A stretch of 64,000 nt of DNA from Bacteroidota bacterium (lineage in GTDB: Bacteria > Bacteroidota > Bacteroidia > Sphingobacteriales > Sphingobacteriaceae). Within the stretch, counting starts at the first letter, position 1; the number at the start of each line of letters is the position of its first letter. The stretch covers positions 1 to 64,000 of the forward strand of contig JABDDX010000002.1 of the NCBI GenBank assembly GCA_013287375.1. The letters are read 5' to 3'. The notes beneath the pieces are model-generated. The model searched no databases. It saw only the letters and a program-made list of their open reading frames with translations, and was not told the DNA's origin. A program made the translations under genes and the position numbers. Shown here piece by piece: positions 37,608 to 56,043 of this stretch.

Positions 37608-37690
37608 AATTTATATTGCCAAATATAACCAATAAATGGAGTGGCTATTGGTTAATTGTTTTAATTTTGCATCAAAATAATACAACAGCT

Positions 37691-39079
37691 TTGACACTCA
37701 TAAAATCAATTTCGGGCATTAGAGGCACCATAGGCGGTGCAGCGGGCGATGGTTTAACACCCGTGGATATTGTAAAATTTACTTCGGCATTTGGTATCTG
37801 GGCCATCCAACAATCGGGGCTTAAAAAGATAGTTATCGGTCGTGATGCGCGTATATCGGGTAGTATGGTGAATAATTTGGTTGTAGGTACTTTACAAGGT
37901 TTAGGTATTGATGTGGTTGATTTAGGTTTATCAACCACACCGACTGTTGAGATAGCTGTTCCTGCTGAAGAGGCTGCGGGTGGTATCATTATTACTGCAA
38001 GCCATAACCCAAAACAATGGAATGCACTTAAATTATTAAATAGTAACGGTGAGTTTATCAGCGATGCTGATGGCCAGGCAGTACTTGAAATTGCTGAAAA
38101 TAGTGATTTTAACTATGCCGCGGTAGATGATTTGGGTAAAGTGGTGTTGGATGATAGCTATCTGCAAAAACATATAGATGTAATATTGGCTTTGCCACTG
38201 GTTGATGTTAAAGCGATTACCGCAGCCGATTTTAAGGTGGTTATAGATTGCGTTAACTCTACAGGAGGAATATTTGTACCTGCTTTATTAAAGGCGTTGG
38301 GCGTTAAAACGGTGCATGAATTGTATTGTGAGCCAGATGGTAAGTTTCCGCATAACCCGGAACCTTTGCCAGAGAATTTAGTGGCGCTATCAAAAGAAGT
38401 ATTGAGCAAACGTGCTGATATAGGGATTGCTGTTGACCCTGATGTTGACCGCCTTTGCTTTGTTTGTGAAGATGGCAGCATGTTTGGCGAGGAATATACA
38501 TTGGTTGCTGTGGCTGATTATGTGCTGAAGCATAATAAAGGCAATACGGTATCAAACTTATCGTCAACACGTGCTTTGCGCGATGTTACCGAGAAAGCTG
38601 GCGGCGAGTACAATGCGGCGGCGGTAGGAGAGGTGAACGTGGTTAACAAAATGAAAGAAACCAACGCGGTTATAGGCGGCGAAGGCAATGGCGGGGTAAT
38701 CTACCCTGAATTACATTACGGTCGTGATGCTTTGGCTGGTATCGCTTTATTTTTAACACATCTGGCTAAATCTGGCAAAACAGTATCTGCTTTAAGGGCA
38801 TCGTATCCAAACTATTTCATCTCGAAAAATAAAATAACGCTAACGCCAGAGATGGATATTGATGCGCTTTTGTTGAAAGTTGAAGAGAAATACAAAAAAC
38901 AACCCCATAGCACTATTGATGGCTTGAAAATAGAATTTGATAAAGAATGGGTACATTTGCGCAAATCGAATACTGAGCCAATTATCCGTATTTATTCGGA
39001 AGCAAGCTCGGAAACGGTGGCGAATAGCTTGGCAAATAAGATTATTGCCGATATAAAGGAAATATTACTTATTGAGTGA
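37691..39079 (+). CDS. glmM: Phosphoglucosamine mutase / phosphohexomutase
   Basis: LIKSISGIRGTIGG, GIIITASHNPKQWNALK, DPDVDRLCFV, GEGNGGVIYPELHYGRDALAG; probable TTG start. Confidence 0.88.
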   Translation: MTLIKSISGIRGTIGGAAGDGLTPVDIVKFTSAFGIWAIQQSGLKKIVIGRDARISGSMVNNLVVGTLQGLGIDVVDLGLSTTPTVEIAVPAEEAAGGIIITASHNPKQWNALKLLNSNGEFISDADGQAVLEIAENSDFNYAAVDDLGKVVLDDSYLQKHIDVILALPLVDVKAITAADFKVVIDCVNSTGGIFVPALLKALGVKTVHELYCEPDGKFPHNPEPLPENLVALSKEVLSKRADIGIAVDPDVDRLCFVCEDGSMFGEEYTLVAVADYVLKHNKGNTVSNLSSTRALRDVTEKAGGEYNAAAVGEVNVVNKMKETNAVIGGEGNGGVIYPELHYGRDALAGIALFLTHLAKSGKTVSALRASYPNYFISKNKITLTPEMDIDALLLKVEEKYKKQPHSTIDGLKIEFDKEWVHLRKSNTEPIIRIYSEASSETVANSLANKIIADIKEILLIE

Positions 39080-39081
39080 TG

Positions 39082-39106
39082 GACTGATTTAGCGAATGAG
39101 TGATTT
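39082..39106 (+). repeat. 25-bp inverted repeat, left arm, flanking four-helix-bundle pseudogene
   Basis: gactgatttagcgaatgagtgattt; 23/25 match to RC of 39518-39542. Confidence 0.88.
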
Positions 39107-39140
39107 TTTATTTATAAGGTGAATAAATTATATTCACCTT

Positions 39141-39514
39141 ATGGAAAGAATGGAAAAATCCGAATTTGCTGAATATTTTAGAAAGAGAACTAAGAAATTT
39201 GTTGTTGATAATATAGATTTATTTAGATCATTACCCAAAACAGAAGAAGCAAAAATAAAATAGGCCGACAATTATTAAGATGTTCTTCTTCTGTTGGTTC
39301 AAATTACCGGGCTGCCTGCCGGGCAAGATCACAGGCAGAGTTTCATTCTAAACTTTCCATCGTTGTAGAAGAAGCTGACGAAAGTGTTTTTTGGGTGGAA
39401 ATTTTAATTGACTCCAATATTGTAAAACCGGGTGAGATAAACGGTTTAATGAATGAAGCTAATGAAATATTAAAAGTTGTTTCAACTGCACGTAAGTCAG
39501 TATCAAACAAATAA
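39141..39514 (+). pseudogene. Four-helix-bundle protein (S23/IVP, Avd-like family), frameshifted
   Basis: MERMEKSEFAEYFRKRTKKFVVDNIDLFRSLPKTEEAKIK* then, in another frame, IGRQLLRCSSSVGSNYRAACRARSQAEFHSKLSIVVEEADESVFWVEILIDSNIVKPGEINGLMNEANEILKVVSTARKSVSNK*; frame break at ~39255-39263 (aaaataaaatagg). Confidence 0.85.
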
Positions 39515-39517
39515 GAT

Positions 39518-39542
39518 AAATCACTCATTCACTAAATCACTC
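39518..39542 (-). repeat. 25-bp inverted repeat, right arm
   Basis: aaatcactcattcactaaatcactc. Confidence 0.88.
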
Positions 39543-39559
39543 ATTCACAAATAAGAACT

Positions 39560-40696
39560 ATGCGTGTTTACTTAGATAATGCTGCTACTACTCCGTTAGA
39601 CCCGGAAGTGATGAAGGAAATGTGTAAAGTGATGGAAAATACCTATGGTAACCCATCGTCAATACACTCACATGGGCGGGAAGCACGTACGCTTATTGAA
39701 CGTTCACGTAAAACGGTTGCTAATTTATTGGGTACATCACCATCGGAGATATTCTTTACTTCGAGTGGTACCGAGGCGGATAATATGGCTATCAGGTGCG
39801 GTATTGTTGATCATAACATTAAACATGCTATAACTAGTCGTATTGAGCATCATGCGGTTATACATACTTTTGAAGCGCTTGAAAAAGCGGGTGTTATCAA
39901 ACTAAGTTTTGTTAATCTTGATTCAAAAGGAAACATCGACTACCAACATCTTGAAACTTTATTGAAGGATAACGAGCGTAGCTTTGTATCAATCATGCAT
40001 GCTAATAATGAGATAGGTACCCTGTCGGATATGGAGCGTATCGGCGATTTGTGCGAGGTTTATAACGCCATCTATCATTGTGATACGGTGCAAACAATGG
40101 GGCATTACAAGCACGATTTAAGCAAATTAAAGGCTCACTTTGTAGTATGTTCAGCGCATAAGCTGCATGGGCCAAAGGGTGTTGGGTTTTTGCATATCAA
40201 TCATCGTATAAAAATTAAACCGCTTATTTACGGCGGCGCGCAGGAGCGTAACATGCGTGGTGGTACCGAAAATATTTATGGCATTGTTGGCCTTGCCAAA
40301 GCTTTGGATATGGCCTATGCCGATATGGAGCAGCACCAACAGCATATACAAGGCCTGAAAACCTACATGATAGACCAGTTGAAGGAAAGTATCCCCGGTA
40401 TTGAATTCAATGGTGAGACGGCCCCTGATAAAAGCTTGTATACTGTTTTAAACGTTTCCTTCCCCGAAATGGAAATGGCTGATATGTTATTGTTTAACCT
40501 GGATATTGCCGGAATCTCTGCATCCGGTGGCAGTGCCTGTAGCTCGGGTAGCGATATTGGATCGCATGTGCTTACCGCAATCGTCGCGAGCCCATCTAGG
40601 CCCTCGGTAAGATTTTCCTTTTCAAAAAACACTACAAAAGAGGAGATAGACTATACAGTAACCAAAGTACGCGAACTGTGCTTGGTTAGCGCTTGA
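39560..40696 (+). CDS. Cysteine desulfurase
   Basis: VYLDNAATTPLDPEVM, SAHKLHGPKGVGFL, SGGSACSSGSDIGSHVL. Confidence 0.94.
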   Translation: MRVYLDNAATTPLDPEVMKEMCKVMENTYGNPSSIHSHGREARTLIERSRKTVANLLGTSPSEIFFTSSGTEADNMAIRCGIVDHNIKHAITSRIEHHAVIHTFEALEKAGVIKLSFVNLDSKGNIDYQHLETLLKDNERSFVSIMHANNEIGTLSDMERIGDLCEVYNAIYHCDTVQTMGHYKHDLSKLKAHFVVCSAHKLHGPKGVGFLHINHRIKIKPLIYGGAQERNMRGGTENIYGIVGLAKALDMAYADMEQHQQHIQGLKTYMIDQLKESIPGIEFNGETAPDKSLYTVLNVSFPEMEMADMLLFNLDIAGISASGGSACSSGSDIGSHVLTAIVASPSRPSVRFSFSKNTTKEEIDYTVTKVRELCLVSA

Positions 40697-54962: not shown

Positions 54963-54976
54963 ATTATTGAGTGAAT

Positions 54977-55001
54977 GAGTGATTGGGTGAATGAGTGATT
55001 A
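54977..55001 (+). repeat. Solo copy of the four-helix-bundle-cassette 25-bp repeat
   Basis: gagtgattgggtgaatgagtgatta; 22/25 match to RC of 39518-39542. Confidence 0.75.
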
Positions 55002-55916: not shown

Positions 55917-55941
55917 TAGGGTTGTTATTCTTTAACATGAT

Positions 55942-56027
55942 TGTCATTCTGAGGAACGAAGAATCTTCTTCGATATGCCAAGCGAACTATGCTAGATGCA
56001 GAAGATTCTTCGTTCCTCAGAATGACA
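55942..56027. repeat. Perfect 28-bp inverted repeat with 30-nt loop
   Basis: tgtcattctgaggaacgaagaatcttct (55942-55969) / agaagattcttcgttcctcagaatgaca (56000-56027). Confidence 0.93.
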
Positions 56028-56043
56028 AGCGGTAAATCTAAAA

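Follow-up and report, generated by a model that had tools for sequence, protein, structure and literature searches.

The nearest described relative of the element analyzed here is the intervening sequence (IVS) of the Coxiella burnetii 23S rRNA, a stem-loop of ~430 bp with a 28-bp inverted-repeat stem, which carries an S23 ORF and has been called a selfish element (PMC4990558). Next nearest by organization are the REPIN/RAYT systems (PMC3116915, PMC2817692), in which a single gene is accompanied by cognate palindromic repeats that are also found dispersed and alone. Intergenic arrays of the heptamer TAACTGA, almost only direct repeats, are known from Beggiatoaceae, Cyanobacteria, and Bacteroidetes; a regulatory role was proposed for them, no obvious exchange mechanism was apparent, a repeat-binding protein was considered as a possible mobile element, and the S23 gene goes unmentioned (MacGregor, 2015; PMC4679880). 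The Avd protein of diversity-generating retroelements (DGRs; PDB 4DWL, 8UB7) shares the four-helix fold of the S23 proteins. A search of the open-access literature (preprints and most subscription journals lay outside its scope) returned no paper that links S23 genes to heptamer arrays.

The window, a stretch of 64,000 nucleotides from a Sphingobacteriaceae genome, contains a frameshifted gene of the S23/IVP family (39,141–39,514, PF05635) in a region (39,068–39,550) flanked by glmM (37,616–39,079) and a cysteine desulfurase gene (39,560–40,696), both on the + strand. The 5' arm of this unit (39,068–39,106, + strand) is a degenerate array of the 8-nt unit GTGAATKA/GTGATTTA, as read on the G-led strand, and the 3' arm (39,516–39,550, + strand) is an inverse array that includes two perfect copies of TAAATCACTCATTCAC; in a repeat search, the best-matched core of the former (39,076–39,106) and positions 39,518–39,548 of the latter formed inverted arms of 31 nt with 87% identity. 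The first frame of the gene (39,141–39,263, + strand) encodes 40 aa, including an N-terminal motif also present in intact clade members, and stops within an A-rich stretch. The remainder lies in another frame (39,236–39,514, + strand), which is 65% identical to residues 26–109 of an intact congener copy and exceeds the curated cut-offs of both PF05635 (E = 2.6e-13, 50.5 bits vs. 33.8) and TIGR02436 (E = 2e-18, 66.6 bits vs. 24), placing the gene in the S23/IVP family. An earlier note, made from the sequence alone, had described a solo, frameshifted S23/Avd-like gene bounded by 25-bp terminal inverted repeats and lacking a transposase. Most of this description was confirmed: the 25-mer at 39,082–39,106 and its inverse at 39,518–39,542 match at 23 of 25 positions on recounting, a single gene between glmM and the cysteine desulfurase gene is split at the A-rich stretch, and the unit contains a sole PF05635 match and no Y1 (HUH) transposase. 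The inverted repeats are real as arms, but they are arrays of a short unit that also has solo copies, not a private terminal pair. We found no Rfam structure above threshold in the unit, no rRNA match in 38,900–39,700, no defense-system profile match, and no reverse transcriptase (RT) match in the genome, the assembly of which is 58.5% complete.

Like the Coxiella IVS, the unit holds an S23 ORF, here broken, in the loop of a terminal stem and is of similar size (about 430 bp); unlike it, the unit is located between protein-coding genes and not in an rRNA helix, and its arms are arrays of a clade-specific 7–8-nt unit that also exist alone. As in REPIN/RAYT systems, the gene is flanked by cognate repeats that are also dispersed; however, its product is a four-helix bundle that lacks a Y1/HUH nuclease, the repeats consist of short-unit arrays, and true Y1 genes of the same taxonomic family carry other palindromes. 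The TAACTGA heptamer is the complement of TCAGTTA, which is the unit of one S23 clade (the GTTATCA clade: L113, L116, L120, L173, and L176), whereas the window unit GTGAATKA has 8 nt. Finally, in contrast to Avd in DGRs, the unit is accompanied by no RT match in the incomplete assembly and apparently by no template or variable repeat.

The same arrays recur elsewhere in the source genome. In the 58.5% complete assembly, the 12-mer GAATGAGTGATT occurs 12 times vs. no match for its mirrored control, and the arms are therefore beyond chance. Outside the window element, this 12-mer lies in solo arrays without an S23 gene, and several of these arrays form hairpins whose loops range from a few bases to tens of bases; one solo array is located in the window at 54,971–55,000 (+ strand), and others on contigs C4, C5, C20, C50, and C99 match the 5' arm. 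The genome also encodes two further S23 genes, each between inverted arrays of a different unit. Separately, the window contains a perfect 29-bp inverted repeat (TTGTCATTCTGAGGAACGAAGAATCTTCT) with a 30-nt loop at 55,941–56,028; a similar motif adjoins a Y1 transposase gene in L508, thus this repeat is probably a REP-type palindrome of another system.

Inverted arrays accompany the S23 gene across the taxonomic family, where 89 of the 121 genomes contain PF05635, with up to 14 copies per genome and 451 in total. The array score was defined as the best local alignment between the upstream 200 bp and the reverse complement of the downstream 200 bp. Its median was 32.5 for 118 S23 genes vs. 18 for cross-locus pairs (n = 1404) and 17 for neighboring ORFs (n = 159), and a score of at least 24 was reached by 85% of S23 genes vs. 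13% and 14% of the two controls, respectively. G outnumbers C on the 5' arm strand at 98 of 100 loci, and the best-fitting array period is 7 nt at 68 of 77 loci and 8 nt at six. The earlier note had allowed that other copies of the gene family might lack the repeats; arrays in fact accompany most of them. Among 80 loci from named genomes, 67% of 78 reached a score of 24 vs. 4.6% across loci. Loci with the pattern came from Bacteroidota, Acidobacteria, Chloroflexi, Proteobacteria, Clostridia, and Planctomycetes, and AGCNNTC and AGTNNTC are among their units. In IMG/VR viral contigs, the majority of the S23 loci detected likewise have clear inverted arms; one query tried against INPHARED phages found no S23, and plasmid copies of S23 are mostly cyanobacterial. 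About 15–30% of S23 loci are without clear arms; 20 array-less loci were checked as candidate rRNA IVSs and contained no rRNA.

L117 (G113:C1:2560791-2563105) has very long 8-nt arrays of the GTTAGTTG type, with at least 24 units on one side of the S23 gene. L139, L151, L130, L163, L158, and L166 have pairs of S23 genes 1.4–1.9 kb apart with differing array units, several of which straddle a thiolase-like gene. The related viral contigs L273–L277 and L301 carry S23 between GGCNNTC arrays, apparently at a shared position, the arms of L301 matching almost perfectly, and four near-identical viral contigs (L291–L293 and L303) carry an S23 gene without detectable inverted arrays.

Array units are specific to S23 clades. 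Along the S23 tree, the 7-nt flavors are GTATTGA, GATTTGA, GACATTA, GTATCAA, GTTATAA, GTTGAAA, GTTATCA, and GTTGTGA, and the 8-nt flavors are GTTAGTTG and GTGAATKA. The k-mer similarity of the arrays correlates with S23 identity (Mantel r = 0.50), a value reached in none of 2000 permutations (permuted maximum 0.08). The match extends to unrelated sites: for paired loci of different genomes that have unrelated flanking proteins, mean array similarity was 0.38 when S23 identity was at least 60% vs. 0.07 when it was below 50% (p = 2e-14, with non-independent pairs). Therefore, the gene and its arrays change site together.

Close relatives of the window S23 (59–100% identity to the L101 copy) were identified in 33 of 101 genomes of the genus, that of the window included, and nearly all clade members inspected are located within 8-nt inverted arrays of the GTGAATTA type. 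As named from sequence, the clade occupies at least four sites: glmM/cysteine desulfurase (L387, L391, L397, L409, L415, and L416), a 22-locus site, thyA/ispE, and an RNase R gene. The median GTGAATKA count is 28 in genomes with a close clade member, 17 in those with distant members only, and 6 in those with none (p = 3e-5 for the two extremes, a statistic that ignores phylogeny); some genomes are array-rich yet have no detected clade member, for example G127 with 148 arrays. At the glmM locus, S23 or its remnant is present in four of 24 congener loci (the window, L096, L101, and L103), several of the remaining loci have arrays only, and others have neither. Thus, the unit is not fixed at this locus in relatives, and the decayed window copy is one of several decaying. 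Neither of the two refuting outcomes named in the earlier note was observed. The element at this locus is old, common to about eight congeners, and mostly being lost. Upstream of the cysteine desulfurase gene in L093, L100, and L104, the gap that holds the window element is occupied by arrays of clearly different units (GTTCATA, GTCCGAA) without S23. The frame break, read earlier as decay or slippage, is local decay private to the window copy, and conserved programmed frameshifting or slippage is ruled out because most clade members have an open frame in this region; assembly error may be the source of the break in this 58.5% complete assembly.

At orthologous phage sites, the element is present in some genomes and absent from others. 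In one group of phages, 3 of 80 contigs have it inserted between the head-decoration gene and the major-capsid gene, whereas in empty relatives, with ~87–93% capsid-gene nucleotide identity to a filled one, these genes are separated by 5–8 bp that carry no array. The three elements are 424 bp long and 96–98% identical. At third codon positions, their S23 genes are 91–97% identical vs. 50–73% for the capsid gene, and the element therefore entered or spread after phage divergence; judged by these identities, it is younger than its flanks, and the pattern may reflect lateral exchange of a short segment carrying the element. The flanks AAGGAGT/AAGGAAT could represent a duplicated 7-bp target or a retained ribosome-binding site; in the search for target duplications proposed earlier, this phage site gave the only candidate and none was clear. 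The window element has inverted arms. A second phage group shows reciprocal occupancy: L278 and L296 hold S23 with different arrays at a terminase-side site that is vacant in L290, and the S23 gene of L290 occupies a site that is empty in L296. Inserts of 135–262 bp at the terminase site of phage relatives were inspected and contained no arrays. On chromosomes, many sampled copies are located at a few sites between co-directional genes, read from sequence as fadJ/fadA, argC/argD, and metH/metF, in a sample weighted toward S23 genes with high scores; compared with inheritance, movement is therefore rare. The earlier reading as a whole is thus partly supported: the proposed mobility stands for the element class, on the evidence of the filled and empty phage sites, but the copy at the window locus is an old one.

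An alignment-based model of an intact congener S23 (pLDDT 96) matches the S23 structures 2RLD (TM 0.88) and 2GSC and also the DGR protein Avd (4DWL, TM 0.77), and a related S23 matches the bAvd Pfam profile with E = 1.8e-9, just under the profile cut-off, in agreement with the Avd-like fold noted earlier. The two S23 PDB entries have five chains each, and five is also the commonest unit count of an arm (59 of 154 arms, with 4–6 units in 75%), the mode in shuffled sequences being three, as counted by a detector that requires G and thus sets the mode of 5 partly by construction. Together, these numbers suggest one array unit per S23 subunit, on the presumption that the protein binds the arrays. 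The TRAP ring reads repeated short sites in a similar manner. We propose that an S23 homopentamer would bind its own array, as single-stranded DNA or RNA of either arm, with one unit per subunit, that this binding would bring the ends of the element together, and that the copying and insertion chemistry would be supplied by the host or some partner. The solo arrays would then be gene-less derivatives or targets. An RNA hairpin between operon genes is probably tolerated, like the rRNA IVSs, which would explain the long persistence of the element at such sites. Sense-strand G-U wobbles are not in excess among the arm mismatches (64 vs. 80, p = 0.21), and RNA pairing of the arms is therefore not supported as a selected feature.

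In the best reading, the element is an IVS-like S23 stem-loop with RAYT/REPIN-like organization without a transposase, its recognition and transposition chemistry being presumptive. We consider it rather probable that the complete explanation, a widespread minimal element that consists of an S23/IVP gene looped between two inverted 7–8-nt arrays, putatively recognizes its own arrays, and is decayed in the window, is correct. An unlikely alternative is that S23 is chiefly a TRAP/CsrA-like RNA-binding regulator and that the arrays beside its gene and elsewhere are its operators, the gene and operators being passed on vertically at sites within operons and only rarely transferred between lineages. 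The long stay of S23 genes between the fad, arg, and met genes, solo arrays matched to the clade, the combination of a ring protein with repeated short sites, and the regulatory role proposed for TAACTGA heptamers (MacGregor, 2015; PMC4679880) would all fit such a role; however, it does not account for the precise gain between phage structural genes of an element younger than its flanks, for how often copies are lost or decay at the window locus, or for the many different flanking genes across phyla.

Mobilization of non-autonomous hairpins in trans by Y1 (RAYT/IS200-type) transposases, with S23 as a passenger, is improbable. Y1_Tnp occurs in 55 of 89 S23-positive vs. 2 of 32 S23-negative genomes (p = 1.8e-8 for 121 genomes, ignoring phylogeny), and this co-occurrence may be phylogenetic; 34 S23-positive genomes are without a Y1 match, six genomes with 4–10 S23 genes have neither Y1 nor RT, the Y1 genes have their own, different palindromes with no heptad arrays shared at the 20 Y1 loci examined, and the covariation of S23 and unit is left unexplained. 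The earlier idea of a trans-acting RT fared no better, as RT showed no association with S23 presence across the 121 family genomes (Fisher p = 0.68). Arrays might alternatively be unrelated simple repeats that serve as insertion hotspots, S23 genes landing repeatedly in hairpin loops. The abundance of solo arrays and the hairpins of other flavors in the glmM–cysteine desulfurase gap of L093, L100, and L104 agree with this scenario, but it is already disfavored and has very little probability, given that the unit tracks the S23 clade even at unrelated sites and that the empty phage sites carry no array. An ordinary pseudogene beside a chance inverted repeat, which the frameshift of the window gene might suggest, is scarcely credible with arrays at most other copies and 12 vs. 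0 control matches in the genome, and it is refuted by the covariation of unit and clade.

The S23 genes and their clade-specific arrays in many bacteria and some phages point to a very small and mostly undescribed mobile element that lacks a recognizable transposase. More tentatively, and at somewhat less than even odds, S23/IVP genes with cognate heptad or octad arrays may constitute a distinct class of minimal mobile element found across bacteria. In this class, a nuclease-free pentameric ring protein would read one unit per subunit in each arm and drive the spread of the element via host enzymes, and the rRNA IVSs would be the particular instance in which the element inserted into rRNA. The "four helix bundle protein" S23/IVP is widespread but has no known function, and heptamer arrays are frequent in bacterial intergenic DNA, likewise without an explanation; the clade-by-clade match gives each a partner. 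The decades-old question of the role of the S23 ORF in rRNA intervening sequences is now open to direct binding and transposition tests. If the S23 protein moves the element, the latter would rank among the smallest known mobile elements, and it would lack its own nuclease.
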